This document shows positions 12,428 through 38,075 of a stretch of DNA of 64,000 bases, piece by piece. The stretch is from an uncultured Draconibacterium sp. (GTDB lineage: Bacteria > Bacteroidota > Bacteroidia > Bacteroidales > Prolixibacteraceae). The notes under the pieces were generated by a model. It made no database searches. It worked only from the letters and a program-made list of their open reading frames with translations, and was not told the origin of the DNA. The stretch lies in assembly GCF_963675585.1 (NCBI RefSeq), contig NZ_OY776414.1, positions 1,281,001 to 1,345,000 of the forward strand. Direction: 5' to 3'. Position 1 is the first letter of the stretch, and the number at the start of each line of letters is the position of its first letter. The position numbers and the translations under genes were made by a program.

Positions 12428-12448
12428 AATTTCATCTGCTTACAGTTC

Positions 12449-19655: not shown

Positions 19656-20249
19656 ATGGGGACATCGAATCAACATATTGATTACATCCATATTGTTAAA
19701 TTAATAGATGGAGATGCCAGGTCTTTCGATGTATTATTCGAAAAATATTCGGGGCGTTTGTTCAACTTTGCTTTAAAGTATTTAAAATCGGTTGAAGATG
19801 CTGAAGAGGTGGTACAATCTGTTTTCTTGTACATTTGGGAAAAGCGCGGAAGTTTAAAACCTGAATTCTCGTTTAACGCCTATCTTTTTACCATTGCGCA
19901 CAACATCATTAAAAAACAGTTTTTAAAGAAGGCACGCGATAATGCCTACAAAGACGAAGTTTTATATACTTTATTGAAATCTGACAATAGTCTGGAGAAG
20001 ATAATTGATTATAAATATTTATTAAAAAAGGTAGAAGAAATAATAGAGCAACTTCCGCCAAAACGAAAAGAAGTATTTATTAAACGGAAATACCAGGAAC
20101 TTCCGGTAAAAGAAATAGCTGCTGAAATGGGCATCTCCCCCAACACTGTCGAGAATCATCTGTCTGCTGCACAAAAGCAAATTCTAGAAACACTGGAAAA
20201 AGAAAAACTGGCCGGATTTTTATTCTATATGCTTTTTGTAAAGCTGTAA
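19656..20249 (+). CDS. ECF-type RNA polymerase sigma-70 factor
   Basis: 197 residues. Sigma region 2 is visible at about 25-95 (LFNFALKYLKSVEDAEEVVQ, FLYIWEKR), and region 4 at about 130-180 with the helix-turn-helix ELPVKEIAAEMGISPNTVEN. There is no sigma 1.1 or region 3, as expected for an ECF member of the Bacteroidota SusC-linked group. It should direct transcription of the SusC/SusD pair and perhaps the flavoprotein operon downstream once released by the FecR-like anti-sigma factor encoded next. The gap to that gene is 228 bp, larger than usual, so separate promoters are possible. Confidence 0.95.
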   Translation: MGTSNQHIDYIHIVKLIDGDARSFDVLFEKYSGRLFNFALKYLKSVEDAEEVVQSVFLYIWEKRGSLKPEFSFNAYLFTIAHNIIKKQFLKKARDNAYKDEVLYTLLKSDNSLEKIIDYKYLLKKVEEIIEQLPPKRKEVFIKRKYQELPVKEIAAEMGISPNTVENHLSAAQKQILETLEKEKLAGFLFYMLFVKL

Positions 20250-20307
20250 CTTTTTTTTGATCTGATATTCACTCTTCAGAACTCTGAAACGAACACCTCT
20301 TAAAAAT

Positions 20308-20337
20308 TGTCATTTCGAGCGTTGTGAGTAATCTTTT
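20308..20337. repeat. Possible remnant of a dispersed extragenic repeat
   Basis: The stretch containing TGTCATTTCGAGCG followed by GAGTAATCTTTT resembles the TGTCATTTCGA-type extragenic repeats common in Bacteroidota genomes. Only one copy is seen in this window, so the call rests on resemblance. Confidence 0.3.
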
Positions 20338-20477
20338 AATTTTACCAAACAGTAATAAAAAAACACACCTGTAAGGCTCTTTAAATCAGTTATTAAAACT
20401 AAGACTGCTTTAAAAAGTGTATTTTTTTTTGATTTTGACTAGTGGATTATTAACCGAAGTTGACATATGTAAGTAGT

Positions 20478-21497
20478 ATGAGGATAGATAAGAATAAAAT
20501 AAGACGTTTTACATCTGATAAATTTTCGATGAGTGATTATTTATCCGTGAAAGAATATTTCAAAAACGAAGAATATGATGAAAACTTGTCAGAGCAAATG
20601 AAATCTGACTGGGACGAAACAAGTTCAACAGACAGGAGCATGAATCACATTCTGAAATTTCTACACACAAAAATGGGGATTGAAGAGCTCAACTTTCGTC
20701 AGAAATCTTACCGCCTTTTTTCAAAAATTGCAGCCATATTAATTCTTCCTGCTTTTATCACAATTGCCTTTTTAACCTATCAATCAATAAAACAAAACAA
20801 CGCGGAAGTAACCTGGGTCGAAATATTTTCACCGGCTGGTTCCCGAACAAACTTTCAGCTTCCCGACGGAAGTATTGGCTGGCTTAACAGTGGCTCGTCT
20901 ATAAAATATCCTTCTCAGTTTAAAGGCGAAAGAAGGGTTGAGATATCGGGCGAAGTGTGGTTCGATGTTGTTCATAAAAGAAACAAGGAGTTTAAGGTGA
21001 ATACTCCATATTTCGAGATAAAAGTTTTAGGTACACAGTTTAATGTAACATCGTATCCTTCCGAAAAAACGGCTCAGGTAATTCTGGATAAAGGGAAAGT
21101 TGAACTGACCGGAAAAAACGGCCGGCAGGCAATTACTATGACTCCCAATCAACGTGTTGTATATGATATCACAAAGAAGAATTTTGTAAAATCGGAATGT
21201 GATGCCAGTTCCTATTGCTCGTGGAAAGATGGTTTACTGATTTTTAAAAATGTGCCTTTTTCTGAGATTGCCCAACGTGTTGGCAGAAAGTACAATGCCG
21301 AAATAATTGTACACGATGAAGCTTTGAACTCGGAAATTTTCAGGGCTACTTTTGAAGATGAGACACTGGATCAGATTTGTAAACTCCTAGCAGGGGTTGT
21401 TCCAATCGAATATAAAATCCACAAGAGAATTATCCAACCGGATGGTTCTTTCTCGAAAAACAAAGTCGAAATCTGGACAAAACGAAATATCAACTAA
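20478..21497 (+). CDS. FecR-family anti-sigma factor with DUF4974 domain
   Basis: 339 residues from the ATG at 20478; a TTG at 20460 in frame is less likely. The cytoplasmic N-terminus of about 85 residues binds the sigma factor. One membrane helix follows (AAILILPAFITIAFLTY). The periplasmic FecR domain has FSPAGSRTNFQLPDGSIGWLNSGS, GEVWFDVVH and TPYFEIKVLGTQFNV, and a C-terminal DUF4974 domain has FKNVPFSEIAQRVGRKY and ATFEDETLDQICKLL. It should hold the ECF sigma factor at the inner membrane until the STN domain of the SusC encoded next signals that ligand is bound. The three genes form a classical trans-envelope relay. Confidence 0.95.
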   Translation: MRIDKNKIRRFTSDKFSMSDYLSVKEYFKNEEYDENLSEQMKSDWDETSSTDRSMNHILKFLHTKMGIEELNFRQKSYRLFSKIAAILILPAFITIAFLTYQSIKQNNAEVTWVEIFSPAGSRTNFQLPDGSIGWLNSGSSIKYPSQFKGERRVEISGEVWFDVVHKRNKEFKVNTPYFEIKVLGTQFNVTSYPSEKTAQVILDKGKVELTGKNGRQAITMTPNQRVVYDITKKNFVKSECDASSYCSWKDGLLIFKNVPFSEIAQRVGRKYNAEIIVHDEALNSEIFRATFEDETLDQICKLLAGVVPIEYKIHKRIIQPDGSFSKNKVEIWTKRNIN

Positions 21498-21543
21498 AAA
21501 ATAAGAAATGCCAATGAATTAAACCAAATCGAATTAAACAAAA

Positions 21544-21572
21544 CAGGGAAGGTACTTGCACTACCCTCCCTG
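21544..21572. promoter_or_regulatory. Hairpin between anti-sigma and susC genes
   Basis: CAGGGAAGGTA (21544-21554) pairs with TACCCTCCCTG (21562-21572), 10 of 11 bases, around a 7-nt loop. No T-run follows, so it is not a classical terminator. It may be an mRNA processing or stability element that lets susC reach higher levels than the regulator. Confidence 0.5.
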
Positions 21573-21622
21573 CAAATTGTGAATTAAATATTAGTAGTAC
21601 TAAATCCACAGCTAACAAAATT

Positions 21623-24600
21623 ATGAAAAAAAACCGAAGTTATGGGGTATTGAATAACTATGCCCTGTTTAAAATGCTAAAAATTATGCGATTTACCATT
21701 ATCATTTTACTCGTAACGTTAACACAGACTTTTGCAGTAAATAGTTATTCGCAACAAACAAAACTTACCCTTTCATTACAAGGGGTTACCGTAGAAAAAG
21801 TGCTCGATGAAGTTGAAAACAGCACCGAATTCTATTTTTTGTATAACAAAAAAATGGTTGATGTTAACCGAACTGTTGACATTAATGTAGAGGCAAAAAC
21901 GGTAAATAAGGTACTCGAACAACTTTTTCGCGATTCAGATGTATCCTATACCATTATTGATCGCCAAATATTATTAACCAATAAGTTGTTAACCGAATCG
22001 GAAAATAATATCGGGTATGGTGAGCAAAAATCAATTACCGGAAAAGTAACCAACGACAGAAATGAGCCAATTCCGGGTGCCACAGTAATTGTTAAAGGTA
22101 CCACACAAGGTACAGTAACCGATGTAAATGGAAATTACACGCTTGCTAACGCACCTGCTTCCGGATTCTTACAGATTTCTTTTGTGGGTATGATAACTGC
22201 CGAATTTGATATTAGCGGACAAACAGTTATTGATGCAAAATTGCAGGAAGATTTTATCGGAATTGAAGAGGTGGTAGCCATCGGTTATGGAACCATGAAA
22301 AAGGCGGATTTAACAGGGGCCGTTTCACAGATAAAAACAGAAACGCTTGAGCAGGTTCCGGTTTATAACATGGAGCAGGCTTTAAAAGCCAATGCATCAG
22401 GTGTTCGCGTTAGTCAGAATTCCGGTCAGCCCGGAGCACGGATAGAAGTTCGTATACGTGGGGGAAACTCGATGATTGGCGACAATGGTCCATTGTACGT
22501 TGTTGATGGTTTTCCGGTAACCGGAGGAATTAATTTCATGAATCCTTCGGATATCGAATCGATCGACATATTAAAAGATGCCTCTGCAACTGCAATTTAC
22601 GGAGCAAGGGGTGCAAATGGTGTTGTTTTAATTACTTCAAAAAGAGGGAAAAAAGGGCAAAACAGCAAGATTGAAATCAATACATACCTTGGATTTCAAC
22701 AGGAAACAAAACGGTATGACCTTTTAAATGCGCAGGAATATGCAATAATTGCCAACGAATGGCTAAAAAACGGAGGGTTAGATCCATTCTTTTCTCAAGA
22801 TGAAATTAATAATCTGGGAGAAGGAACAGATTGGCAGGATGCGATTTTTCAAACTGCTCCTATTCAAAACCATACCATTACTTTCTCGGGTAGTTCTGAA
22901 AAAACACGTTATTCTTTATCCGGAAATTATTATGATCAGGATGGAATTATCATCAATTCAGGAGTTAAAAGAGGTTCTGTTCGTTTAAACCTTGACCATG
23001 AGTTGAACAGCTGGCTAAGCATGGCGGTTAACCTGAATCTATCAAGAAGATCGAATACCAGAATTCCGGTAGACAATGGATATCGAGGTACCTCTACCCT
23101 ATCTGCAGCAGCTTCTGCCCCTCCCACATTACCCGTTTACGATGAAGATGGTTTACCAACTCAAATTGAACAGTTTTACAATTTCGGCTCTGCAGATATG
23201 AGAAACCCTTTGATTTATGCAAGCAGGCAAACAACCACAATGGCAAATACTGTTATTGGAAACGGCAGTTTTGATGTGAAAATAACAAAAGACCTAACCT
23301 TCAAAACATTATTGGGTATTGAATATGAATATGCATGGACAGATTATTACAGTCCTATCATATACGAAAATGACCGAGGATCAGCTTCTCAAAGTACATC
23401 GTACAACAATTCATTCTTAAATGAAAACGTTTTAACCTACAAGAAAGAGATCGACGACAAGCATGAACTCACATTAACTGGTGGATATACCTATCAAACC
23501 CATATGGGAAGGTCATTAAATGCCAGTGTGAGTGGATTTGCAAACAATACCACTGAGAATTACAGTCTACAGGCCGCTGAAATATCAAATCCGCCATCAT
23601 CTTACATTTCTGAATGGGTATTGGCTTCGTGGCTGGCTCGTGTGAATTATTCCTTCAATAATAAATATTTAGTTACTGCAAGTATCCGAGCTGATGGTTC
23701 TTCCCGTTTCGGTGCAAATAATAAATGGGCTGCATTCCCGTCAGGAGCTTTTGCCTGGCGTGTTTCAGAAGAACCTTTTATGTCTGATGTTACTTTCCTT
23801 AGCGATTTAAAATTCAGGGCAAGTTATGGTGTAACTGGTAATACTGCCTTGAGCCCTTACCAATCGTTAGACAGATTAGGAACAGTTAAGACTATTTTTG
23901 CCAATCAGGCCGACGAGGTTGGATTTGTGCCAACCGGAATATCAAATGCCGATTTAAAATGGGAAACAACTGCCCAGACAGATATTGGTTTTGACGTTAG
24001 CTTTTTCAAAAATAAGTTGAGGGTAACAGCCGACTATTATAAAAAGAATACGACTGACCTTTTGGCATCGGTTCCGCTGCCTCCATCTGTTGGTTTTGGC
24101 TCTATTCTTCAAAATATTGGAGAAATTCAGAATCAGGGTTTTGAGCTTACCGCAAGTGCAGACATCATCAGAACGAATGATTTAGCCTGGAATATCTCTG
24201 CGAATTTTTCTTCAAATAAAAACAAAGTTATTGAAATTGCAGGAGGTAGTGATATTTTCGCATCCGGTCAGGGAGCTGCATGGTCAAGTACCAATATTGC
24301 CCGCGAAGGAGAGCCAATTGGAAGTTTTTACGGCCTTGTTGAAGACCATATCGGAGACGATGGTTTGATTGTATATAAAGATTTAAGCGGCCCGGACGGA
24401 ACACCTGACGGCGTTGTAAATGCACTAGACCGGGTTATTCTTGGCAGCCCACATCCTGATTTCTTTTATGGGATGAATTCAAACCTTTCATACAAAAACT
24501 TTGATTTAAATATCATTTTGGATGGTGTATATGGAAATGAAATTTTCAACGCAACTTTAGGAACACACCTGAATTCTTTCCAACGCGGAAACAACCAATT

Positions 24601-24976
24601 TACTGATATTATGGGCAACTACTGGACAGCTGAAAATCCTGATCCAAATGCCAAATATCCAAAAATCAGTTCTGCTACTCAAATTGATGTATCCGACAGG
24701 TTTATTGAAGATGGAAGCTATTTAAGGGTAAAATCAATACGCCTTGGATATACGATCCCAACAAAAAGACTGGGCTTGAAATGGTTCGACTATGCACAGG
24801 TTTACCTTTCAGGAACAAACCTTTTCACATTCACAAAATATTCCGGACTCGATCCTGAAGTTAATACTAAAGGTGGTGATAGCCAGGATATTGCCAGCCG
24901 ATTGAATATGGGACACGATCAAAGTGGATATCCCAATGCAAAAACGTATGCAATTGGTTTAAAACTTAATTTCTAA
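21623..24976 (+). CDS. SusC-like TonB-dependent transducer with STN domain
   Basis: 1117 residues. The long signal sequence runs to about residue 44. An STN domain follows at about 48-118 (LTLSLQGVTVEKVLDEV, FYFLYNKKMVD, VNKVLEQLF), then a carboxypeptidase-regulatory-like domain at 137-207, then the SusC signature EEVVAIGYGTMKKADLTGAV and a plug with RIRGGNS, LYVVDGFPV and LKDASATAIYGARGANGVV. The barrel ends in Phe. The STN domain is the contact point for the FecR anti-sigma factor encoded just upstream, so this receptor both imports and signals. The SusD gene starts 13 bp downstream. No glycosidase follows, so the cargo is unclear. Confidence 0.95.
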   Translation: MKKNRSYGVLNNYALFKMLKIMRFTIIILLVTLTQTFAVNSYSQQTKLTLSLQGVTVEKVLDEVENSTEFYFLYNKKMVDVNRTVDINVEAKTVNKVLEQLFRDSDVSYTIIDRQILLTNKLLTESENNIGYGEQKSITGKVTNDRNEPIPGATVIVKGTTQGTVTDVNGNYTLANAPASGFLQISFVGMITAEFDISGQTVIDAKLQEDFIGIEEVVAIGYGTMKKADLTGAVSQIKTETLEQVPVYNMEQALKANASGVRVSQNSGQPGARIEVRIRGGNSMIGDNGPLYVVDGFPVTGGINFMNPSDIESIDILKDASATAIYGARGANGVVLITSKRGKKGQNSKIEINTYLGFQQETKRYDLLNAQEYAIIANEWLKNGGLDPFFSQDEINNLGEGTDWQDAIFQTAPIQNHTITFSGSSEKTRYSLSGNYYDQDGIIINSGVKRGSVRLNLDHELNSWLSMAVNLNLSRRSNTRIPVDNGYRGTSTLSAAASAPPTLPVYDEDGLPTQIEQFYNFGSADMRNPLIYASRQTTTMANTVIGNGSFDVKITKDLTFKTLLGIEYEYAWTDYYSPIIYENDRGSASQSTSYNNSFLNENVLTYKKEIDDKHELTLTGGYTYQTHMGRSLNASVSGFANNTTENYSLQAAEISNPPSSYISEWVLASWLARVNYSFNNKYLVTASIRADGSSRFGANNKWAAFPSGAFAWRVSEEPFMSDVTFLSDLKFRASYGVTGNTALSPYQSLDRLGTVKTIFANQADEVGFVPTGISNADLKWETTAQTDIGFDVSFFKNKLRVTADYYKKNTTDLLASVPLPPSVGFGSILQNIGEIQNQGFELTASADIIRTNDLAWNISANFSSNKNKVIEIAGGSDIFASGQGAAWSSTNIAREGEPIGSFYGLVEDHIGDDGLIVYKDLSGPDGTPDGVVNALDRVILGSPHPDFFYGMNSNLSYKNFDLNIILDGVYGNEIFNATLGTHLNSFQRGNNQFTDIMGNYWTAENPDPNAKYPKISSATQIDVSDRFIEDGSYLRVKSIRLGYTIPTKRLGLKWFDYAQVYLSGTNLFTFTKYSGLDPEVNTKGGDSQDIASRLNMGHDQSGYPNAKTYAIGLKLNF

Positions 24977-24989
24977 AAACACCGAAATT

Positions 24990-26444
24990 ATGAAAAGAAT
25001 AACATTATATATTTTAATCACAATCCTATTTTCATCTTGTAATGACATGTTGGATGAAGTTCCAATGGATTTTGTTTCCCGTTCTAACTTTTATACAAAC
25101 GAAATTGATGCACAGGGAGCCCTCAATGGTGCCTATGATGCCACTGGCCCTGATTTTTACGGCATTACTCACTATTTAATGGTTGAGCTTCATGGAGATT
25201 ATTTGAATGGCAGGGGATCTCAGGCACCGATTTCGATAATGGATCAGGTATTAAATCAGCAAAATATTGGTAGATGTGAAACCAACTGGTTAACACTGTA
25301 TCGTGCAGTTAACAGGGCCAATGCAGTGCTTGATAATGTAGTTAACATTGAAGATATTACAGAAAGTGCCAGAACAAGAATATTGGCTGAAGCACACTTT
25401 TTAAGAGCAATGGCCTATTTCGAATTAGTTAGAGGTTGGGGACCTGTTCCAATTAAAACAAAAGAAAGTACCGACCTGAGCGAACTGGAATCGCCCAGAA
25501 TGCCTGAAAGTGATGTATATGATCTGATTATTGAAGACTTGTTAATTGCTGAAAAAGATTTATCGGAGGATATTGGTGCAGAAACAGGACGTGCTGGAAA
25601 ATGGGCTGCAAAAATGCTCCTTTCACATGTTTATTTAACAATTGGTGAATGGGCCGAAGCAGCCAGCAGAGCCAATGATGTAATCAATAGTGGTAAATAC
25701 GCAATGGTGCAGGTAACAGAACCGGATGATTTTTATAAAATATTTGCTTCTGAAACTAGTTCTGAAGACATTATGTCTATTCACCACTCTGAAACAAGTA
25801 CTTCTACCATTCCAACCTATCTTCACAGAGGAAGTGCATACCCATATAACAACAGTAGTACAGGCTATTTTGCATGGCTGCCCGACATGAATTCGTTTAT
25901 TGGTGATAGTTGGGATACCAATGATTTAAGGAAACAATTTAACTTCTACGAAAAATATCAGGATTCAGACGGAAACTGGGTTTCACTGCCTTCGACCGTT
26001 CCTGTGCTGATGAAAAAATTCATCAACAATGCAGATGGGTTAAATATTTACAGCGTTCCGATTTATCGGTATACTGAAGCTTTCTTATTCTATGCTGAAG
26101 CTGCCTGCCAGGCAGAAGGAGCTCCTTCTGATCTTGCACTTGAACGCCTAAATATGGTAAAAAGAAGGGCTTATGGTTACGATCTGAATACGCCTTCTCC
26201 TGTTGATTATCCTTCAGGTATGAGCAAAGACGAATTTGTGGAAACAGTTCTCCAGGAGCGTGCCTATGAATTTATGGTAGAGCGCAGAAGATGGTTCGAT
26301 CTTAAACGTACAGGAAAAGTAAAAGAAGCTTTTGCTGCCGTTGGTAAAAACATTATCGACGAAAGATTTTTCTGGCCAATCCCGGAGGATGAAATCAATA
26401 ATAATCCTGCAATCAATCAGGAAGATCAAAATCCTGGATATTAA
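24990..26444 (+). CDS. SusD-like outer-membrane lipoprotein (second locus)
   Basis: 484 residues. The lipoprotein signal ends in LFSSC (Cys about 17), followed by the SusD start pattern DMLDEVPMDFVSRSNFYTNE. Internal family motifs are ILAEAHFLRAMAYFELVRGWGPVPI, YRYTEAFLFYAEAACQ and the C-terminal VLQERAYEFMVERRRWFDLKR with FWPIPEDEINNNP. It binds ligand on the cell surface with the STN-bearing SusC. Its spacing of 13 bp from susC supports one transcript, and a strong terminator follows, so the flavoprotein genes behind it need their own promoter or read-through. Confidence 0.95.
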   Translation: MKRITLYILITILFSSCNDMLDEVPMDFVSRSNFYTNEIDAQGALNGAYDATGPDFYGITHYLMVELHGDYLNGRGSQAPISIMDQVLNQQNIGRCETNWLTLYRAVNRANAVLDNVVNIEDITESARTRILAEAHFLRAMAYFELVRGWGPVPIKTKESTDLSELESPRMPESDVYDLIIEDLLIAEKDLSEDIGAETGRAGKWAAKMLLSHVYLTIGEWAEAASRANDVINSGKYAMVQVTEPDDFYKIFASETSSEDIMSIHHSETSTSTIPTYLHRGSAYPYNNSSTGYFAWLPDMNSFIGDSWDTNDLRKQFNFYEKYQDSDGNWVSLPSTVPVLMKKFINNADGLNIYSVPIYRYTEAFLFYAEAACQAEGAPSDLALERLNMVKRRAYGYDLNTPSPVDYPSGMSKDEFVETVLQERAYEFMVERRRWFDLKRTGKVKEAFAAVGKNIIDERFFWPIPEDEINNNPAINQEDQNPGY

Positions 26445-26453
26445 TAAGCTAAT

Positions 26454-26481
26454 AAAGGGAACTGCTCACTCAGTTCCCTTT
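26454..26481. terminator. Rho-independent terminator after susD
   Basis: AAAGGGAACTG (26454-26464) pairs perfectly with CAGTTCCCTTT (26471-26481) around CTCACT, followed by a T-rich run. It separates the SusCD unit from the flavoprotein operon. Confidence 0.85.
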
Positions 26482-26665
26482 AATTTCCCTTTTTAACCTA
26501 TAAACTAACTATTTTACGCTGTTACCGCGCTATCGTATTAGTCGATTTTAGGTAAATGCAAACAGAGTTATCATAATAGTCAGAGACTGGCTTTTTACGG
26601 TGAAATCACTTTGTTGTAATACTGCGGCCAACAGAAAATTGTAAGATCAGCTAAATCATCTAATT

Positions 26666-29644
26666 ATGCGACTGATTGTTTTATTGTTCATATTCATCGG
26701 TATCTGGAATTATTCTCCGGCTTCAAATAACCTGGTCTCTCAGTCGGCAAGAGATATTCCGCTTATAGCTTCGGTGGATGTTGTTATTGTTGGCGGGACA
26801 ACAGCTGCCGTATCTGCAGCAGTGGAGGCATCTTCGCATGGAGCATGCGTATTTTTAATTGCTCCCAGACTTTATTTGGGCGAAGATATGTGTGCTACTT
26901 TGCGTTTGAAGGTTGCTGAAGATTGTATACTTAAAACCAATCTTGAAGAACAGCTTTTTTCAAATGAGCTAGAAATAACTCCTTTAAAAGTGAAAGCTAC
27001 TTTAAACCATGCATTGCTCGATGCCAACGTGAATTTTGTTTTTGGATCTTTCGCTACTGATATTTTATGGGATGAAAACCACATCCCGTCGGGAGTTATA
27101 ATTGTAAACCGTGCAGGCAGACAGGCAATTGCTGCCAAAACAATTATTGATGCCACGCCACAAGCCTGGGTATGCAAAATGGCAGGAGCAAAATCAAACG
27201 ATGCAACTATTTCGGAAATAGAATTTGAAAGAACTCTTATTATGCCGGGTTTAAAAAAGGATGAGCCTTTATATGTCAGAAGGAAATTAACCATTCCGAT
27301 GAACGATTTAACCTTTCCGTCGTTTGCAAAAGCCGAACAAATTGCCAGAAAAGAAACATACTCCGAAGTTCAGTTACGGGCTTCCGAGTCCTTGTTTTTT
27401 ATTCCACCAAATCCAATTGTTTGTAACAAGAATGTAACTGAATGGACCGAAAATTCTGAAACAACGCTTGAGTTTTTTCAGCCCAAAGGTTTTAACAACC
27501 TCTATGTATTATCCGGAAGTGCAGGAATTCCAAGAGAAGTTGCTAAAGATTTGTTGCAACCGGCAGCACTTTGCAGCATTGGTGAAAAAATAGGTGAAGC
27601 AGCTTCAAATTCATCAATAGAGAAAATTTTCGCTACCAAATTCTTTTTACACAATAAAGCGGTTGCAACAACAGAACTGGGCGATGTAAAAGAAATTCTA
27701 ACCGGACTTCGACCGATTCACGAAAATGAAAACGTAGTTAGACTTCAGGAAAGTTCAGTGCCTGTTATCTCCGATTACGAAGTTGTTGTTGTTGGAGGCG
27801 GTACTTCGGGTGCTCCTGCAGCTATTGCGGCAGCCCGAATGGGAATGAAAGTGCTGGTAGTTGAATTTCAGGAAGGACTGGGCGGTGTTGGCACCCTTGG
27901 ATTAATTGGGAAACCCTGGTATGGCCGGAAGGTAGGTTTTGCCGCTGAAGTTCCTTTTCCGCAAGAAAACATTGAACCTAAAATGGAATGGTATCGCTCA
28001 GAACTTGAGAAAGCAGGAGGTGATATTTGGCTTGGCACTCTTGGATGCGGGGCTTATGTTGACGGAAATAAAGTAAAAGGTGCAGTTGTAGCAACCCCAG
28101 CAGGCAGAGTGGTTGTTAAAGCAAAAGTTGTTATCGATGCAACAGGAAATGCAGATGTGGCAATTGCTGCGGGCGCTCAATACATGTACGGCGAAATTGA
28201 AAAGGGCGACATTGCTTTGCAGGGCACTGGATTGTCTTCAAGATCAATTGTGGGAAACTACCTAAATACGGATTATCTGCTTGTGAATGAAATGGACATG
28301 ACTGATGTTTGGCGCACTTTAGTAAGTGTTCAGCAAACAAAGTTTTCGGAAGGCGAATTCGATGCAGGTACCTTAATTCAGAGCAGGGAGCGCCACCGTG
28401 TTGTTGGCGATTTTGTATTGCACTACCTCGATCAAATTACCGGTCGAACTTTCCCCGATGCCATTGTTTTTTCCCAAAGCGATTACGATTCGCATGGTTA
28501 CCCCAGTTCCGATTATTTTGCATTGTTGCCACACGACAGCATTTCGCGCAAACAAAACCATCCTGCGCCGGGAGGAACCTGTTACACGCCATTTCGTTGT
28601 TTGCTTCCCAAAGGTTTGGATGGTATTTTAGTTACCGGACTTGGTATTAGCATGGAGCGGGATGCGTCGGCAATGATTCGGATGCAACTTGATCTGGCCA
28701 ACCAGGGATATGCTGCAGGTATGGCCTCTGCGATTGCAGTTTCTGAAGATAAAAGTTTAAGAGAAATCGACATTAAAGAACTTCAGAAATACCTAGTTGA
28801 AAAAGGGAACTTACCCGAAGAGGTTCTTTCTCAAAAAGACTCTTATCCATTTTCGCGTCAAATCGTTCAACAGGCAGTTATCGACTACGGAAAGGCAAGC
28901 AATCCGGAACAGGCAGGGAAACCACTGGCAATAATTCTGACACACCAAGAGACAGCTATCCCGCTTGTAAAAACAGCATTTTTAAATGTACAAGGAAAAC
29001 AGAAACTACAATATGCCCAGGTTTTGGGCATGTGCGGAGAAAAGGATGGTGTGGAAATTATGATTGATGAACTTAGGAATATTAAAACCTGGGATGAAAA
29101 AATTTTCCAGGGAAGTTTGGCCGATTTTGCTCATTTACCCACACCGGTTGATGCGCTCATTCTGGCCTTGGGAAATTCCGGCGACGAAAGGGCTATTCCC
29201 GTTCTGATAGATTTAGTTGAAAAGCTGGATTCGGGAGTGACACTTTCTCATTTTCGTTCTGTTGCGCTTGCTTTGGAAAAATTTGCTTGCCGCGAAGCGG
29301 CCGAACCACTGGCTCAACTTCTTCAAAAAGAAGGAATGTCTGGTTTTGCCATGGCAAATATTGAACAAGCTTCAACTCAATTAGGCAACGACGGGAAAGG
29401 TCCGAATCCGGTGAGAAATGCTTCATCGGATAAAAGAACAAAGGCACTGCGTGAAATTGTTTTGGCCAGAGCCTTATATAAATGTGGCGATTACAACAAC
29501 ATTGGTGAAACCACATTAAAAAGTTACCGGAATGATATGCGTGGTTTATTTGCACAACATGCAAAAATGGTGCTGGAAGCAAACGAAAGAATACTGGAAA
29601 CAGGTTCCAATAAAACAAATAAATTTAAAGGCAAAATTGAATAA
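26666..29644 (+). CDS. Exported double-module FAD-dependent oxidoreductase with HEAT-like tail
   Basis: 992 residues. A Sec-type signal without twin arginines covers about residues 1-20. A first dinucleotide-binding module begins at about 37 (VDVVIVGGTTAAVSAAVEA, a weakened GxGxxG) with LYLGEDMCATLRLK after it. A second, better conserved one begins at about 372 (YEVVVVGGGTSGAPAAIAA), with GLGGVGTLGLIGKPW and the closing FAD motif LVTGLGISMERDASAMIRMQ near residue 660. Residues from about 780 to 900 look like HEAT helices (ALGNSGDERAIPVLIDLVEKL). It belongs to the FAD_oxidored (PF12831-like) group. It is a paralogue of the protein at 32913 and is followed 96 bp later by a related smaller flavoprotein. 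Reaction and substrate are unknown. Confidence 0.85.
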   Translation: MRLIVLLFIFIGIWNYSPASNNLVSQSARDIPLIASVDVVIVGGTTAAVSAAVEASSHGACVFLIAPRLYLGEDMCATLRLKVAEDCILKTNLEEQLFSNELEITPLKVKATLNHALLDANVNFVFGSFATDILWDENHIPSGVIIVNRAGRQAIAAKTIIDATPQAWVCKMAGAKSNDATISEIEFERTLIMPGLKKDEPLYVRRKLTIPMNDLTFPSFAKAEQIARKETYSEVQLRASESLFFIPPNPIVCNKNVTEWTENSETTLEFFQPKGFNNLYVLSGSAGIPREVAKDLLQPAALCSIGEKIGEAASNSSIEKIFATKFFLHNKAVATTELGDVKEILTGLRPIHENENVVRLQESSVPVISDYEVVVVGGGTSGAPAAIAAARMGMKVLVVEFQEGLGGVGTLGLIGKPWYGRKVGFAAEVPFPQENIEPKMEWYRSELEKAGGDIWLGTLGCGAYVDGNKVKGAVVATPAGRVVVKAKVVIDATGNADVAIAAGAQYMYGEIEKGDIALQGTGLSSRSIVGNYLNTDYLLVNEMDMTDVWRTLVSVQQTKFSEGEFDAGTLIQSRERHRVVGDFVLHYLDQITGRTFPDAIVFSQSDYDSHGYPSSDYFALLPHDSISRKQNHPAPGGTCYTPFRCLLPKGLDGILVTGLGISMERDASAMIRMQLDLANQGYAAGMASAIAVSEDKSLREIDIKELQKYLVEKGNLPEEVLSQKDSYPFSRQIVQQAVIDYGKASNPEQAGKPLAIILTHQETAIPLVKTAFLNVQGKQKLQYAQVLGMCGEKDGVEIMIDELRNIKTWDEKIFQGSLADFAHLPTPVDALILALGNSGDERAIPVLIDLVEKLDSGVTLSHFRSVALALEKFACREAAEPLAQLLQKEGMSGFAMANIEQASTQLGNDGKGPNPVRNASSDKRTKALREIVLARALYKCGDYNNIGETTLKSYRNDMRGLFAQHAKMVLEANERILETGSNKTNKFKGKIE

Positions 29645-29740
29645 AAGAGATACTTGTATATTTCCGGGCAATTTTTAACTAAACCAATAGTACATTTATA
29701 CAATAAATTATATTATACATTTAATAATCTACCTAAAAAT

Positions 29741-31408
29741 ATGAATCTCATACTTAGATATTTTAAAGGCGTTTTGCTGATAATAACCGCAGGAATGATC
29801 ATATGGGGATGCCAGTCTGCTATACAAGCAGAAAATGAATTCAGTGCGGATGTTATCATTTATGGTGGAACGTCGTCGTCTGTAATGGCTGCGGTAGAAG
29901 TCGCACAAGCAGGAAAATCGGTAATAGTGGTTTCTCCCGACAAGCATTTAGGAGGATTAACTTCGTGTGGACTGGGATACACCGATACCGGAGATAAATC
30001 AACCATTGGAGGTTTGTCGCGCGAATTTTATCACCGCGTGTGGCTGCATTATAATGATTCTTCGGCCTGGATCTGGCAAAAGCATTCAGAATATGGCAAT
30101 AAAGGTCAGGGCACAGTAGCTATGGATGGCGAAAACCGCACCATGTGGATTTTTGAACCTCACGTAGCCGAACAGGTTTTTGAAGATTTTGCAAAAGAAA
30201 ACAAGCTTACCATTTATCGTGATGAATGGCTGAACCGAGAAAAGGGTGTTGAAAAGAACAATGGAAAAATAACAGCATTCAAAACGCTTTCGGGAAAGAC
30301 ATTTAAAGGAAAAATATTTATTGATGCCACTTACGAAGGCGATTTAATGGCTGCGGCCGAAATAAGTTACCACGTTGGCCGCGAGAGCACTTCTACTTAT
30401 GGAGAAGAGTGGAATGGTGTTCAAACGGGCGTTTTACATCATCAGCACTGGTTCAGAGCAAAAATCTCACCTTACAAAATTCCGGGAGATCCATCCGGCG
30501 GACTGGTTACAGGTGTGTCAGCCGAAGCGCCCGGAGAATATGGTGCTGCCGATGATAAAATTCAGGCATATTGTTTTCGAATGTGTATGACAAACCACCC
30601 TGAAAACCGTGTTCCTTTCCCAAAACCTGATAATTACAATGCTGACAATTACGAATTGTTGCTTCGGGTGTTTGAAAGCGGCCGGAAAGACTGGTTTAAC
30701 AAGTTTGATGCAATTCCGAACAAAAAAACAGATACCAACAATCACGGGCCTTTTAGCAGCGATTACATTGGTATGAACTACGAATATCCGGAAGCAGGTT
30801 ACGAAAAGCGCAAAGAAATTATTCAGCAACACAAAGATTATCAAATGGGATTGCTTTGGTTTGTTGCCAATGATCCGCGGGTACCGGAAGATATTCGCAC
30901 CCAAATGGCTACCTGGGGGCTGGCAAAAGATGAATTTACTGAAAGTGAAAACTGGCCACATCAGATTTATGTTCGTGAAGCCCGGCGTTTGATAGGTGAA
31001 TATGTAACCACAGAAAATGATGTATTGCTAAAACGTGAGGTTCCGCGTCCGGTTGGAATGGGGTCTTATGCAATGGATTCTCACAATGTTCAGCGTTACA
31101 TCACGCCTGAAGGTTATGTGCAGAATGAAGGTGATATCGGCGTTTCTCCTCCGGGACCGTATTCCATTTCATACGGTTCAATTGTTCCGCAAAAAACGGA
31201 ATGTCAGAATCTGCTGGTTCCGGTTTGCGTATCGAGTAGCCACATTGCATTTGGTTCAATTCGTATGGAACCGGTGTTTATGATTCTTGGACAATCTGCT
31301 GCTGTTGCGGCTTGCATGGCAATCGATAAAGATGTGGCTGTTCAGGACATTGATTATTCTGATTTAGAAAAGGAACTCGTAAATCGAAAACAAATTTTAA
31401 CCAGATAA
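29741..31408 (+). CDS. FAD-dependent oxidoreductase lipoprotein
   Basis: 555 residues from the ATG at 29741. The frame reaches up to 29654 through a TTG, but only the ATG gives a proper lipoprotein signal (ending in IWGC, Cys24). A single FAD_oxidored-type module starts at about residue 36 with ADVIIYGGTSSSVMAAVEVAQ, followed by DKHLGGLTSCGLGYTDTG and the FIDATYEGDLMAAA strand. The closing segment has FGSIRMEPVFMILGQSAAVAACMA. The family is common in Bacteroidota and planctomycete catabolic loci, usually without a tested substrate. It lies between a larger flavoprotein and a CstA-like carrier, 22 bp from the latter, which supports one operon. Confidence 0.88.
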   Translation: MNLILRYFKGVLLIITAGMIIWGCQSAIQAENEFSADVIIYGGTSSSVMAAVEVAQAGKSVIVVSPDKHLGGLTSCGLGYTDTGDKSTIGGLSREFYHRVWLHYNDSSAWIWQKHSEYGNKGQGTVAMDGENRTMWIFEPHVAEQVFEDFAKENKLTIYRDEWLNREKGVEKNNGKITAFKTLSGKTFKGKIFIDATYEGDLMAAAEISYHVGRESTSTYGEEWNGVQTGVLHHQHWFRAKISPYKIPGDPSGGLVTGVSAEAPGEYGAADDKIQAYCFRMCMTNHPENRVPFPKPDNYNADNYELLLRVFESGRKDWFNKFDAIPNKKTDTNNHGPFSSDYIGMNYEYPEAGYEKRKEIIQQHKDYQMGLLWFVANDPRVPEDIRTQMATWGLAKDEFTESENWPHQIYVREARRLIGEYVTTENDVLLKREVPRPVGMGSYAMDSHNVQRYITPEGYVQNEGDIGVSPPGPYSISYGSIVPQKTECQNLLVPVCVSSSHIAFGSIRMEPVFMILGQSAAVAACMAIDKDVAVQDIDYSDLEKELVNRKQILTR

Positions 31409-31430
31409 TAAACGATTTAAGCACTTAACA

Positions 31431-32873
31431 ATGATTACATTTTTCGCAGGACTGCTAACACTGATTTTAGGGTACATTTTTTACTCCCGGTTTATCGAAC
31501 GTTTTGCTGATGTTGATGGAACCCGCAAAACTCCGGCATTTACCATGAAAGATGGTGTTGATTACGTGCCTTTAAAATGGTGGAAGATTTTTTTGATTCA
31601 GTTTTTGAACATTGCAGGATTGGGTCCAATTTTTGGCGCTATTGCCGGAGCTATGTGGGGGCCGGTTGCTTTTCTGTGGATTGTGTTAGGATCTATATTT
31701 GCCGGAGCAGTTCACGATTATTTTTCAGGAATGCTATCCATAAAACACAAAGGACTTAGCATAACCGAAATTGTTGGTATTTACCTTGGAACCGGAACGA
31801 AACAGTTCATGAGAGGTTTTACTGTGATTCTGATGGTGTTGGTAGGTGCAGTTTTTATTATGGGCCCGGCAAAAATTCTGGCTGGTTTAACTCCCAATTT
31901 TGCATCGGTAAGTTTTTGGGTATGGATTGTTTTTGTTTATTACCTGCTTGCAACAATGTTGCCCATCGATAAAATAATCGGGCGGGTTTATCCGGTTTTC
32001 GGATTATCACTGCTTTTTATGGCTGTAGGTTTAATTATTGCACTCTTTGTAAAAGGATATCACATTCCGGAATTAAATTTGACCAACTTGCGCAATTTTC
32101 ATGCGAACAGTGATAAGTTTCCAATATTTCCCATGCTATTTATTACGATTGCCTGTGGTGCAATTTCCGGATTTCATGCTACTCAGTCGCCATTAATGGC
32201 ACGTTGTTTAACCAACGAAACATACGGCCGGCGCGTTTTTTACGGAGCCATGATTTCAGAGGGTATAGTGGCATTGATTTGGGCGGCCATTAGTATGAGC
32301 TTTTTTGGAGGAATTCGCGAATTGAATGAAACGATGGTTGCCAACGGAGGAAATGCCGCTGTAATTGTAAACGACATATCGAATTCTCTTTTGGGAAGAC
32401 TAGGCGGTGTGCTGGCATTACTGGGTGTTGTGGCAGCTCCGATTACTTCCGGTGATACTGCATTTCGTAGTGCAAGACTTATTGTAGCCGATTTTATGAA
32501 TTACAATCAGGGACCAATAAAAAACAGGTTGTTTGTTAGCATCCCTCTTTTTGCCATTGGTTTCCTTTTAACACAAATCGATTTCAGCATTATTTGGAGA
32601 TATTTTGCCTGGTCGAATCAAACACTGGCAATGATTGTATTATGGACGATTACAGTATTTCTGGTTCAGCAAAGAAAAAACTACTGGATTACTTTGCTTC
32701 CGGCAGTATTTATGACCGCTGTAACCACTACTTATTTACTCTTTGCACCAGAAGGATTTTCGCTTCCCAAGAGTATCTCCTATCCTATTGGTGCTTTAAT
32801 AACTGTATTTGCGCTGGGTATGTTTATTGTTTACAAACGAAAACATTCAGCACAACTAATTGCTAAAACGTAA
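31431..32873 (+). CDS. CstA-like (carbon starvation protein family) membrane transporter
   Basis: 480 residues, all membrane, with roughly 13 hydrophobic segments. CstA family motifs are present: the N-terminal RKTPAFTMKDGVDYVPLKWW, LNIAGLGPIFGAIAGAMWGP, AVHDYFSGMLSIKHKG, and further in FHATQSPLMARCLTNE and APITSGDTAFRSARLIV. It is shorter than E. coli CstA (about 700 residues) and lacks the extra C-terminal part. Known members move peptides or pyruvate. Here it sits inside a flavoprotein operon, so it may carry the small product of those enzymes across the inner membrane, which is inference. Confidence 0.93.
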   Translation: MITFFAGLLTLILGYIFYSRFIERFADVDGTRKTPAFTMKDGVDYVPLKWWKIFLIQFLNIAGLGPIFGAIAGAMWGPVAFLWIVLGSIFAGAVHDYFSGMLSIKHKGLSITEIVGIYLGTGTKQFMRGFTVILMVLVGAVFIMGPAKILAGLTPNFASVSFWVWIVFVYYLLATMLPIDKIIGRVYPVFGLSLLFMAVGLIIALFVKGYHIPELNLTNLRNFHANSDKFPIFPMLFITIACGAISGFHATQSPLMARCLTNETYGRRVFYGAMISEGIVALIWAAISMSFFGGIRELNETMVANGGNAAVIVNDISNSLLGRLGGVLALLGVVAAPITSGDTAFRSARLIVADFMNYNQGPIKNRLFVSIPLFAIGFLLTQIDFSIIWRYFAWSNQTLAMIVLWTITVFLVQQRKNYWITLLPAVFMTAVTTTYLLFAPEGFSLPKSISYPIGALITVFALGMFIVYKRKHSAQLIAKT

Positions 32874-32912
32874 AATATTTATATTTAGAAAAATACCTTG
32901 ACCAACTAAATA

Positions 32913-35900
32913 ATGAAACGACGAAACTTTATAAAAACCACTGCGGCCGGATCTGCAGTGATATTTACATCCGGAGCATGGGCTTTTAATGCCCCGGGCC
33001 TGGATTCTAAAAAATTTGGATGGCAATCGAAACGTGGAATTCCGGTAGCTTATAATGTTGATGTGGTTGTGATCGGAGGTTCTACCGCCGGAGTTGCAGC
33101 TGCTGTTGAAGCTTCCAGAGAAGGAGCATCAGTGTTTTTACTGGCACAGGAGCCGTATCTTGGCGAAGATGTTTCAGGAACCTTCCGTTTATGGGCCAAA
33201 GATACATCCATTCAAAAAACAGAGCTGGGGAATGCCATCTGGGCCGATGGTTTGCCCTCGCAACTGAAAGTAAAAAAGACGCTTGACAATGCACTTATCG
33301 ATAACAAGGTAAATTTTTTGTATTCGTGTTTTGCCACCGATATTTTAACGGATAAAGAAGGAGCTCCGGCAGGAATTATAATGGCGAACCGCTCGGGAAG
33401 ACAGGCCATTATTGCCAAAACAATTATTGATGCTACTCCGCGTGCACTAGTAGCTCGTATGGCTGGGGCACAATTTGGTGATTATCCGTCAGGAAAGCAG
33501 AATTTTAAATTTACAGTTGTCGGGAATCAGGTGAAATCGGGGATTGATTTTGCCGGAAAAATCAAGGAGGAACCGGTTTTGATTCATCCTTCGGGTGTTG
33601 TAAACGGTGAAGGTTCATCTAAAAACATTGAATACAATGCCATTGAATATACCTTGCAAATTGAAATGAAAGATGGCAGTTGGTCATCGTTTGCCAATGC
33701 CGAGCAGGTGGCCCGCGATCTTACCTGGGATGCTGACCAGGTAGAATCTTCTGACTTACTTTTTCAAAATCCACCGGACAAGCTGGTTGGACAAAAGCGT
33801 TGGACTAACGAAGAAGTAGATTTGGAAAAGATTAACTTGAAGGTATTTCAGTCACGAAAAATTGACAACGTATTTGTTTTGAGCGGAAGTGCCAATTTAA
33901 GCGACAAGGCTTCAGACACACTGTTAGAACCGGGTAAAATGATTCGGATTGGTGAGCGAATTGGCTCCAGCGCAGCCATTCTTGCCAGCGGATTGAGCAA
34001 GCCGGAAAATCCAAAAGTGCTTGGAAATGCTTCTGCAAGTATCGAAAATGGTAATGTTGGAGAACTGCTTGAAGGCTTACGTCCTTCGTTAAACATGGGC
34101 GAAATTGTTTCAGAGGAAACCACTCTTCCTGTTCTGGCTAAATATGATGTAGTTGTATTGGGAGGCGGCACTGCAGGTGCTCCTGCCGGTGTTGGAGCAG
34201 CCCAACACGGAGCCAAAACACTGGTAATTGATTACATGCACGGTTTGGGAGGAATGGGAACATTAGGCATGATCGGGAAATATTACCACGGTTACCGCGA
34301 AGGATACACCAATGTAGTTGACCGCGGAGTAAAAGATATGGGCCCCGACAATCCGCGTAAAAAAGATAAACTTGAATGGTGGGTATTCGACTGGAAAACA
34401 GAATATTTTAGAAAAGAAATAAGGAAATATGGCGGTGAGATTTGGTTTGGAGTTATCGGTTGCGGTGCCTATGTTGAAAATGGCCAGGTAAAAGGCGTGG
34501 TTGTGGCAACTCCCGAAGGCAAAGGAATTGTGTTGGGACATACTGTAATTGATTCAACAGGAAGTGCCGATACCGCCGTTGCAGCAGGTGCCAGCTATCA
34601 TTTTACCGACGGAAATTCAGTGGCTGTTCAGGGCGCCGGTTTCCCGCACAAAAATCCGGAAGATTTTTACAACAACAGCGACTGGACTTTTATTAATGAT
34701 TCAGACATGCTGGATGTTTGGCGTGCCATGGTAGTTGCAAAAGACAAGTACGAGGGAGAATACGATATTGGTAAAATTCCGCAAACCCGCGAAAGAAGAA
34801 GAATGGTAGGCGACTTCACCATTTCTGTACTTGATGTGTACAATGGCAGAAAACATCCCGATTCCATTTCGCTACATAAAAGTTCGTTCGACACACATGG
34901 GTTCACCGAAGATCCGTTTTTCTCGTTAAAACCGCCTGAACACAGTGGTGTAGATGTTTATGCCTATGTACCTTTCAGGGCATTATTGCCCAAAGGTTTA
35001 GAGGGTATTGCGGTTACAGGTTTGGGTGCCAGTGCCGATCGCGATGCAATGCCGGTAATTCGTATGCAACCTTGTCTGCAAAATCAGGGATATGCGGTTG
35101 GATGGGCTGCTGCGCGTGCTTCAAAAAACAATCAAAGAATTAGAAATATTGATGTAAAATCGCTTCAAAAAGAACTGATCAAACTGGGTAGTTTGCCCGA
35201 AAATGTTCTTAGCGATGTGGATAATTATCCTCCCCCGTTTGAAAAAATACAGGAGGCTTCCAAAACTGTGGTAAATAACCTGGAGGGACTTGAAACCATT
35301 CTTTGGGATAAAGAAAGAGGAATTGTAGCACTTACCGATCAGTTTCATTTTAGCACGAAAGAGGAAGACAAGCTGGTGTATGCGCGGATTTTAGGAATAC
35401 TCGGTGTAGCTGATGGATGGCAGGAATTAATAAAAGCCATTGATTCCTACGAAGATTGGGATGAAGGTTGGAATTTTACGGGTATGGGCCAGTTCGGAAA
35501 AAGTATTAGCTACCTCGACAGTCTGATAATTGCAGCTGGCCGGACAAAACATGCTGAAGCGCTGCCTTCCATTTTCAAGCTGATGAAAAAGTTAACGCCC
35601 GAAAGTGAATTTTCTCATTTTCGTGCGGTAGCAATTGCACTTGAAACCATTGCCGATGAAGAGGCTGCAGAGCCGCTTTTCAATTTATTAGAATTGCCTG
35701 GAGTGCGCGGGCATAGTATGTCGGACATTGAAACGGCCAAAAAACTGGAGCCCAAATTTCAGAACGATGTTAGCACGCGAAATAACTCACTTCGTGAATT
35801 GATTTTAAGCCGTGCACTGTATCGTTGCGGCGACTTTAACGGAGTTGGAAATCAAATTCTAAACGATTATTCGAAAGATTTACGCGGACATTATTACAGG

Positions 35901-35960
35901 CATTCAAGCGGTGTTTTGGAAATGTATTCGAAACCAAAAGAAAAGAAAGTTGTATTGTAA
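32913..35960 (+). CDS. Tat-type exported double-module FAD-dependent oxidoreductase with HEAT-like tail
   Basis: 1015 residues. The N-terminus MKRRNFIKTTAAGSAVIF is a Tat-like signal, unlike the Sec-type one of its paralogue at 26666. The first module begins at about 48 (YNVDVVVIGGSTAGVAAAVEA) and the second at about 411 (YDVVVLGGGTAGAPAGVGAA), with GLGGMGTLGMIGKYYHG and the closing GLGASADRDAMPVIRMQP. The C-terminal 200 residues contain HEAT-like helices. Shared blocks such as GRQAIxAKTIIDATP and LPKGLxGIxVTGLG show clear common ancestry with the 992-residue protein. It closes the operon, 39 bp after the CstA-like gene. The substrate is unknown. Confidence 0.87.
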   Translation: MKRRNFIKTTAAGSAVIFTSGAWAFNAPGLDSKKFGWQSKRGIPVAYNVDVVVIGGSTAGVAAAVEASREGASVFLLAQEPYLGEDVSGTFRLWAKDTSIQKTELGNAIWADGLPSQLKVKKTLDNALIDNKVNFLYSCFATDILTDKEGAPAGIIMANRSGRQAIIAKTIIDATPRALVARMAGAQFGDYPSGKQNFKFTVVGNQVKSGIDFAGKIKEEPVLIHPSGVVNGEGSSKNIEYNAIEYTLQIEMKDGSWSSFANAEQVARDLTWDADQVESSDLLFQNPPDKLVGQKRWTNEEVDLEKINLKVFQSRKIDNVFVLSGSANLSDKASDTLLEPGKMIRIGERIGSSAAILASGLSKPENPKVLGNASASIENGNVGELLEGLRPSLNMGEIVSEETTLPVLAKYDVVVLGGGTAGAPAGVGAAQHGAKTLVIDYMHGLGGMGTLGMIGKYYHGYREGYTNVVDRGVKDMGPDNPRKKDKLEWWVFDWKTEYFRKEIRKYGGEIWFGVIGCGAYVENGQVKGVVVATPEGKGIVLGHTVIDSTGSADTAVAAGASYHFTDGNSVAVQGAGFPHKNPEDFYNNSDWTFINDSDMLDVWRAMVVAKDKYEGEYDIGKIPQTRERRRMVGDFTISVLDVYNGRKHPDSISLHKSSFDTHGFTEDPFFSLKPPEHSGVDVYAYVPFRALLPKGLEGIAVTGLGASADRDAMPVIRMQPCLQNQGYAVGWAAARASKNNQRIRNIDVKSLQKELIKLGSLPENVLSDVDNYPPPFEKIQEASKTVVNNLEGLETILWDKERGIVALTDQFHFSTKEEDKLVYARILGILGVADGWQELIKAIDSYEDWDEGWNFTGMGQFGKSISYLDSLIIAAGRTKHAEALPSIFKLMKKLTPESEFSHFRAVAIALETIADEEAAEPLFNLLELPGVRGHSMSDIETAKKLEPKFQNDVSTRNNSLRELILSRALYRCGDFNGVGNQILNDYSKDLRGHYYRHSSGVLEMYSKPKEKKVVL

Positions 35961-37376: not shown

Positions 37377-37524
37377 TGCTTGTAAAACTAGCTAAAGTTT
37401 GTATTGTAGCTGCCATTCGTACAGTTTTCAGATTGAATAGTAATGTTTTGTTAGTGCATTACAATTCTGAAAGTAAAAAGTATCCAAATTGTAGAAATGT
37501 TAAAAGGTAGCCTTCTAGTATCGT

Positions 37525-38025
37525 TTAGGCCGATAATCCGGAAACTCCGCTGGCAAAGCCTGCAAATATCCCCACAAACATCATGATTATAAATGCAAGA
37601 ATGTAAAGGGCAAACATTACAATTGTAAAAATGCCAATAAAGCGGTAATGCGCTTTCAGGTTAGTAAATGCAACGCTCAACTGCTCCTGGTTTTTTGAAA
37701 GAACGGCTTTGTTTATGTTGCTTGAAAAGCGGTACAAGTACAATATGGGGAGAAAATAAATGGCACCAATAATCAGGTAAATCAAACCAAAAAGAAAAGG
37801 AGGAAAGGGCATTTCTCCGGCTAAGTCGCCCGGAATTACCAAAAATACGATGCTCATTACAAAACCACCGAACACCATCATTCCCATAAATACAAAACCA
37901 AGAATGGACAAAAATTTCCCCCATTTCCCGGCGCTTTGTAATATCTGGCCCAGTTCGTTTGTAATCTCAAGTTTTGCGTGTTGTTCGGGCATTTCCTGCC
38001 CCGGGGTTTCGTTTGTGGTATTCAT
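37525..38025 (-). CDS. DUF5362-type membrane protein
   Basis: 166 residues with four hydrophobic segments: FLSILGFVFMGMMVFGGFVMSIVFLV, LFGLIYLIIGAIYFLPILYLY, and the paired FIGIFTIVMFALYILAFIIMMFVGIFAGF near the C-terminus. The middle holds FSSNINKAVLSKNQEQLSVAFTNLKAHYRFIGI, the typical segment of this uncharacterised Bacteroidota family. The N-terminal 25 residues are soluble and acidic. Starting 50 bp after the GH53 gene, it may share that transcript, though a functional link is not evident. Confidence 0.7.
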   Translation of the reverse strand: MNTTNETPGQEMPEQHAKLEITNELGQILQSAGKWGKFLSILGFVFMGMMVFGGFVMSIVFLVIPGDLAGEMPFPPFLFGLIYLIIGAIYFLPILYLYRFSSNINKAVLSKNQEQLSVAFTNLKAHYRFIGIFTIVMFALYILAFIIMMFVGIFAGFASGVSGLSA

Positions 38026-38075
38026 TTTTCAGGTAAATAATAATTTGGTGAACTATAAAAATCAGGAACTCTTGT

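Follow-up and report, generated by a model that had tools for sequence, protein, structure and literature searches.

The DNA analyzed here, referred to as the window, is a stretch of 64,000 nucleotides from an uncultured Draconibacterium sp. (contig NZ_OY776414.1, positions 1,281,001 to 1,345,000), whose genome of 6.03 Mb is contained in four contigs. At positions 19656-35960 of the window, eight consecutive genes on the + strand encode an extracytoplasmic function (ECF) sigma factor, a FecR protein, an STN-type SusC, a SusD, two flavin adenine dinucleotide (FAD)-dependent proteins (FAD1 and FAD2), a CstA-like carrier, and a third FAD protein (FAD3). This gene set had been proposed from the sequence alone (the original prediction), and Pfam and NCBIfam searches confirmed each of the eight genes in place:

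19656..20249, + strand: ECF sigma factor of the Bacteroidetes type (TIGR02985, 139.3 bits versus a cut-off of 126.4; sequence also read)
20460..21497, + strand: FecR-type anti-sigma factor (Pfam FecR, 3.7e-16; FecR_C, 4.8e-15)
21623..24976, + strand: SusC/RagA outer-membrane transporter with an N-terminal STN signalling domain (TIGR04056, 907.5 bits; STN, 4e-10; Plug, 3.2e-19)
24990..26444, + strand: SusD-like surface lipoprotein (SusD_RagB, 2.5e-24; SusD-like_3, 9.9e-22)
26453..26482, + strand: 12-pair hairpin in the gap between susD and FAD1, from a pattern scan; a possible attenuator
26666..29644, + strand: FAD1, tandem FAD_oxidored protein (PF12831, 9.5e-62 in three stretches, 210 bits; 41% identical to FAD3)
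29741..31408, + strand: FAD2, single-domain FAD_oxidored protein, likely a lipoprotein (PF12831, 1.7e-110 over the whole profile, 370.7 bits)
31431..32873, + strand: CstA-type inner-membrane carrier of 480 residues (PF02554, 7.7e-64)
32913..35960, + strand: FAD3, tandem FAD_oxidored protein with a helical tail and a twin-arginine-type signal (PF12831, 2.5e-64, 218.5 bits)

The SusC protein is composed of STN, CarbopepD_reg_2, Plug and barrel domains (Pfam/NCBIfam). Inspection of the reading frame placed the FecR start probably at an ATG at about 20478, later than in the open reading frame table, and FAD2 probably starts at the ATG at about 29741 rather than at the TTG at 29654 of that table. 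Terminator-like sites overall showed no excess (15 observed versus a shuffled mean of 15.2). All three FAD proteins exceed the PF12831 gathering cut-off of 27 bits. No PF02554 gene other than that of CstA was found in the genome, where the three matches to this family all fall within it. The run ends against a convergent major facilitator superfamily (MFS) carrier.

SusCD loci are a main Bacteroidota route to complex compounds, and their substrates are usually guessed from the adjoining glycosidases. As the original prediction had claimed, a Pfam search at E up to 0.001 assigned none of the eight genes to a family of glycoside hydrolases, lyases or sulfatases, the single lyase-named row, PF03130 in FAD1, being a HEAT-repeat model. 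Hence, the operon lacks the carbohydrate-active enzyme that defines a canonical polysaccharide utilization locus, although such an enzyme is present in the run of some relatives, such as L041. The sigma, FecR, SusC and SusD genes are contiguous on one strand and the SusC carries an STN domain, which identifies an ECF sigma/FecR-regulated SusCD locus; Bacteroidota commonly use this arrangement for control across the cell envelope.

The three flavoproteins, which had been described together as exported flavoenzymes, indeed bear export-type signals, but they fall into two kinds, i.e. the single-domain, lipoprotein-like FAD2 and the tandem proteins FAD1 and FAD3 of about 1000 residues. In the predicted model of FAD3 (predicted local distance difference test, pLDDT, 88), the flavoprotein fold was matched twice, at residues 44-363 and 406-762, and was followed by the helical tail at 763-1005; the tandem fold was predicted for FAD3 only, FAD1 being assigned by its identity to FAD3. 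The N-terminal and C-terminal halves of FAD3 align with each other (probability 99.3, E 2.7e-20) and, therefore, the tandem protein most likely arose by internal duplication. Neither this model nor that of FAD2 (pLDDT 86) contains a ligand. FAD2 aligns with the second FAD3 domain (probability 99.6), and both share the motifs REARR/RERRR, D-x-H and R-M, which are missing from the first half of FAD3 in the half-versus-half alignment. Among alignment columns occupied in 90% or more of the 53 rows, those invariant in the tandem family numbered 11 of 320 in the N-terminal half versus 38 of 357 in the C-terminal half. Because motifs and invariance are concentrated in the second half, the second FAD domain is likely to be the catalytic one, and the first may be a degenerate copy with a structural or electron relay role.

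A twin-arginine pattern, which is a loose one, was present in 69 of the 76 tandem proteins, some of these rows being duplicates. The seven tandem proteins lacking it were FAD1 of the window and its copy L017, the FAD1 proteins of L023 and L024, the tandem proteins of L062 and L067, and one of the two frames of L094; the FAD1 proteins of the window, L017, L023 and L024 have Sec-like starts rather than twin-arginine translocation (Tat) ones. Among single FAD proteins, 28 of 60 showed a lipobox pattern and 4 of 60 a twin-arginine pattern, and the signal of FAD2 ends in IIWGC, which lies outside the lipobox pattern used. TatC is encoded in the genome.

No NCBIfam model scored over its cut-off for the FAD proteins (among the best 25 of 34 rows for FAD1 and the best 25 of 48 for FAD3), whereas PF12831 was matched well above its own, so that among the matches listed no known family with an unrelated role, which would have spoken against the original prediction, was found. 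In phmmer searches of FAD2 and FAD3 against solved structures the matches listed span the nucleotide-binding part only, and the same was true of the FAD2-family profile (best 60 of 85 rows), the tandem family having been searched by phmmer only. Fold comparison returned a broad list of flavoproteins, including aromatic hydroxylases and ketosteroid dehydrogenases; thus, neither sequence, profile nor fold comparison with solved structures gave an enzyme diagnosis for FAD2 or FAD3. The closest named relatives of FAD3 (72-80% identity) are of the Prolixibacteraceae type and include Maribellus, Mariniphaga and Draconibacterium. The other strong PF12831 match in the genome (C4:914163-915323) has no SusC, SusD, CstA, FecR or sigma profile match within the 17 kb retrieved. 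The single FAD proteins of L041, L046, L061, L068 and L102:8095-9876 have an extra N-terminal part, from around VEAE/VETE...GGW, that is perhaps a binding module; that of L041 (about 200 residues) had no match in Pfam.

A search with FAD3 as the query provided 79 named loci, 78 of which were counted after dropping one duplicate, and their genes were labelled with profiles built out of the loci themselves. In the same-strand run, at least two FAD genes were found in 40 of these loci and a single one in 35, accompanied by SusD in 28, SusC in 26, CstA in 18 (one of them, that of L085, only 25% identical), FecR in 15 and the sigma factor in 11; because many contigs are short, these counts are lower bounds. 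Among the 48 tandem-FAD loci with at least 7 kb upstream, SusC or SusD lay upstream within six genes of the same-strand run in 27, compared with 2 of 92 control genes, which were unlabelled minus-strand genes of the same loci (Fisher 1.1e-13, a value that is overstated because the loci share common ancestry). A chance juxtaposition of SusCD and FAD genes was rejected on these counts. A lack of joint conservation of the two halves of the operon would have spoken against the original prediction, but sigma/FecR/SusCD and FAD genes recur together in loci of Prolixibacteraceae, Parabacteroides, Proteiniphilum, Tannerella and Membranihabitans, and elsewhere with a single FAD gene. In many loci the SusCD pair leads directly into the FAD genes, and the run encodes no further enzymes.

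An independent check was anchored on FAD2: with E up to 1e-60 as the limit, 17 of the 395 genomes searched across the phylum gave a match. From 15 of these, twenty regions, none picked for Sus or CstA genes, were labelled by the locus-built profiles and by similarity to previously scanned proteins. FecR, SusC, SusD and FAD genes formed one run in four regions (L114, L123, L124 and L127), and in L122 the FecR-SusC-SusD genes and the FAD genes are divergent. FAD genes adjoin a longer CstA (about 575 residues, about 206 bits) in two regions, L111 and L127, the latter reproducing the gene order of the window between FecR and CstA, all its FAD genes being of the single kind. Sus or sigma genes lie close by, outside the run, in L117, L120, L125 and L126, and no profile besides FAD was matched in the remaining regions. 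Four proteins of these regions were compared with solved structures, and two of them were unrelated, i.e. an aspartokinase-homoserine dehydrogenase and an aminopeptidase.

In FastTree trees of SusC and of SusD, the transporters of the window, L024 and L039 grouped apart from the rest, with non-FAD transporters in between, and several further groups were retained with FAD genes. As these trees carry no support values and few outside sequences (7 of 28 SusC and 6 of 33 SusD), the one clear division is that of the window/L024/L039 group from the remaining transporters. The redox cassette thus occurs with no fewer than two clearly distinct SusCD groups, and perhaps with four or more, as might be expected if one shared downstream step handled more than one substrate.

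The genes that accompany the FAD genes in relatives point to the kind of compound involved. Members of glycoside hydrolase (GH) families GH2, GH76 and GH36 were found beside FAD genes in L041, GH42 in L091, L089 and L078, and GH10 and GH28 in L078; sulfatases lie beside FAD genes in L045, L056, L023 and L068, and sulfatase-like frames, by similarity only, near those of L111, L112 and L118 (3 of the 20 FAD2 regions). These neighbours suggest a sugar-type rather than a non-sugar substrate, and the non-sugar compound contemplated in the original prediction becomes less likely. FAD genes are located among five (L111) and seven (L118) sulfatase-like frames in two genomes that belong to the same distant family (f203). 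The clearest hint at the product was provided by L068:8651-18969, where a single FAD gene, a tandem FAD gene, a sulfatase, a GntP permease, a glycerate kinase and a DUF1080 relative stand in a row; the permease and the kinase behind the FAD genes suggest a small acid.

Candidate electron carriers were also found in a minority of loci. A family of about 380 residues with a signal-like start lies beside tandem FAD genes in 6 of 85 loci (L024, L039, L041, L046, L085 and L016, the last one shorter because truncated at the stretch end). It has no convincing match in Pfam, and its motif D-x-x-[ST]-x-A-T is near that of ApbE targets. The flavinylation motif [S/T]GA[S/T], as given in PMC8238504, fits L041, L085, L016 and L046, and the proteins of L024 and L039 and the homologue in the genome of the window deviate at the glycine. 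A NapH/NapG-like polyferredoxin lies beside the FAD genes of L046, and CxxCH proteins were found near those of L112, L121 and L086. A 1070-residue protein of L112 (5830-9042), located between FAD genes and sulfatase-like genes, carries a c-type haem motif and weakly matches designed propeller proteins. None of the eight operon proteins matched FMN_bind, the three FMN_bind matches of the genome all being outside the window, and neither FMN_bind nor CxxCH proteins were found in the window. The flavin mononucleotide (FMN)-like protein was considered as the missing electron carrier of the window and rejected, since its copy sits in a different gene context, probably a resistance-nodulation-division efflux set to judge by the sizes and N-termini of the genes.

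Taken together, these results lead us to a reading that we hold tentatively, at a little under even chances, according to which the operon serves sensing, uptake and redox catabolism, and a compound that is imported and probably derived from glycans is processed by a redox pathway in the periplasm. Judging from the protein families, binding of the substrate at SusD and the STN-SusC would signal through FecR to the ECF sigma factor and switch the operon on, and SusCD would carry the compound into the periplasm. There, FAD2 and the Tat-type tandem protein would oxidize it, the second FAD domain of the tandem protein acting in catalysis and the first being kept for structure or electron passage. 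The compound would most likely be a sugar, a sugar acid or a glycoside, sulfated in some relatives; the electrons might be passed on to respiration by partners that differ between relatives (FMN-like proteins, NapH-like polyferredoxin, c-type haem proteins), and a small organic-acid product would enter the cell through CstA. As the halves are conserved together and no known family with an unrelated role was found for the FAD proteins, import followed by extracytoplasmic flavin chemistry, the core of the original prediction, is a fair reading; its oxidative direction is, like the substrate and the CstA cargo, something that we infer. The earlier interpretation as a whole is partly supported. 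A more specific proposal, which we regard as possible but doubtful, is that of a flavin-dependent, non-hydrolytic glycan pathway of Bacteroidota, in which exported PF12831 enzymes, among them a twin-FAD protein whose duplicated domain would have turned into an accessory, would oxidize SusCD-imported sugars in the periplasm, CstA would take up the released small acid, and the cassette would be paired with at least two SusCD groups.

Several observations weigh against the periplasmic redox pathway. The locus is patchy, since at E up to 1e-30 the tandem protein found matches in 4 of 395 genomes when the class was searched and in 11 of 393 when the order was searched, the genome of the window included and one match being partial and weak. 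The matches in G342 and G552 cover just the second FAD domain and may represent other families, and no tandem match was found in G562, of the same genus, or in G462, G652 and G717, of the same family. SusC or SusD was missing upstream in 21 of the 48 loci, Sus genes and CstA occurred together in only 9 of the 78 (many contigs being short), and the FecR-SusC-SusD-FAD run was missing in 16 of the 20 FAD2 regions. In genomes rich in glycan loci, genes for sugar enzymes may lie next to FAD genes by chance, no background count having been made for them. CstA scored 101.3 bits in NCBIfam versus a pyruvate symporter equivalog cut-off of 1188. The FMN-like proteins of about 380 residues had no Pfam FMN_bind match even at E up to 1, and the homologue in the genome of the window lies outside the locus, about 73 kb downstream of the operon. 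Moreover, to our knowledge, the substrate, product or activity is known for no member.

The flanks of the operon contain the following features:

1602-14105, + strand: separate arabinan-type locus with its own SusCD, three GH43 enzymes and two arabinofuranosidase-type enzymes
14178-17264, - strand: DUF1080 gene (3-keto-disaccharide hydrolase family) adjoining an M81/MlrC metallopeptidase-family gene
17658-18899, + strand: radical S-adenosylmethionine protein directly upstream of the operon, below the NCBIfam cut-offs (best 25 of 35 rows)
36048..37376, - strand: the convergent MFS carrier, closest to monocarboxylate carriers and below every cut-off (L-lactate MFS model, 95 bits versus 320)
36048-39140, - strand: the MFS carrier, a DUF5362-like protein (sub-threshold) and a GH53 galactanase-family gene
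38076-39140, - strand: the GH53 galactanase-family gene

The convergent MFS carrier is perhaps related to the operon; it is not conserved beside FAD genes, since a search of the 85 loci at E up to 1e-8 gave no homologues. No M81 homologue was found in these loci either.

These flanks bear on the view that the operon is part of an ordinary glycan locus whose hydrolases are encoded elsewhere, for example in the arabinan locus (1602-14105) or by the GH53 gene (38076-39140), with the FAD proteins only trimming or detoxifying oxidized or modified sugar ends. The GH43, arabinofuranosidase-type and GH53 enzymes nearby, and the FAD genes located within glycosidase-bearing clusters of several relatives, would fit such a role. 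However, the hydrolases in the flanks either come with a SusCD pair of their own or are encoded on the opposite strand, a search of the 85 loci for GH53, though not for GH43, gave no recurrence, labelling of the 20 FAD2 regions revealed no relatives of GH43 or GH53, and the many loci in which SusCD runs straight into the FAD genes leave no intervening enzyme. We consider this view unlikely. We give a similarly low probability to the reverse chemistry, in which the FAD proteins would be periplasmic terminal reductases that reduce an imported organic acceptor with respiratory electrons, like flavocytochrome c or urocanate reductase, SusCD importing the acceptor and CstA handling a linked acid.

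Import and oxidation of a non-glycan substrate, such as an aromatic compound, a terpenoid or another secondary metabolite, appears rather improbable. The aromatic hydroxylases and ketosteroid dehydrogenases among the fold relatives, a FadL/TodX-like porin downstream in L043 and the dienelactone hydrolase family (a broad alpha/beta-hydrolase family) in 2 of 80 pooled neighbours are in its favour, but the neighbour scans otherwise yielded no ring-cleavage or CoA-ligase family (best 25 of 190 families in the pooled scan), whereas the same scans did yield carbohydrate-related families.

If the periplasmic oxidation of sugars is correct, it would constitute a glycan breakdown route without a hydrolase, with the electrons passing straight to respiration. 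The recurrence of similar arrangements in relatives, which include marine isolates and gut Parabacteroides, suggests a putative redox-chemistry route for breaking down an imported, probably sugar-like compound. A recurring class of SusCD loci with flavoenzymes and a carrier would escape the guessing of substrates from glycosidases, and the locus gives a first functional setting to PF12831, a family cited by accession in one paper of the literature surveyed.

In the literature surveyed, which did not extend to subscription journals or preprints, no publication was recognized as describing this gene set. The 3-ketoglycoside pathway comprises a wider BT2156-2159 gene set with Gfo/Idh-type dehydrogenases (cf. 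the NCBIfam name BT_2158). Neither a Gfo/Idh-type glycoside 3-dehydrogenase nor a DUF1080 hydrolase is among the eight operon genes. The general idea of that pathway, oxidation before cleavage, is the same, its oxidations using LacABC according to PMC9007349, and a DUF1080 relative occurs in L068 as well as a DUF1080 gene 4 kb upstream of the operon in the window. The enzymes of the operon are, in contrast, FAD-dependent PF12831 proteins, and DUF1080 was found by similarity in a single one of the 85 loci. The 3-keto pathway was not adopted, as genes of the DUF1080, Gfo/Idh and AP_endonuc_2 families adjoin FAD genes only occasionally.

The flavinylated extracytosolic reductase systems (PMC8238504) likewise rely on an extracytosolic flavoprotein, and their FMN carriers and polyferredoxins have possible counterparts beside the FAD genes in a minority of loci. 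They differ in that FMN_bind is unmatched here and the FAD genes are linked to SusCD and CstA, SusD being unmentioned in the main text of that source. The window CstA shares the PF02554 core with E. coli CstA, which imports pyruvate (PMC5847655), but it has 480 residues versus 701 model positions and scores far below the equivalog cut-off. Finally, polysaccharide utilization loci under ECF sigma/FecR control contain the same run of sigma, FecR, STN-SusC and SusD genes, whereas the catalytic genes of the operon encode PF12831 flavoproteins and no carbohydrate-active enzyme family; the SusCD locus is of a known kind, and the enzyme set is what appears to be new.

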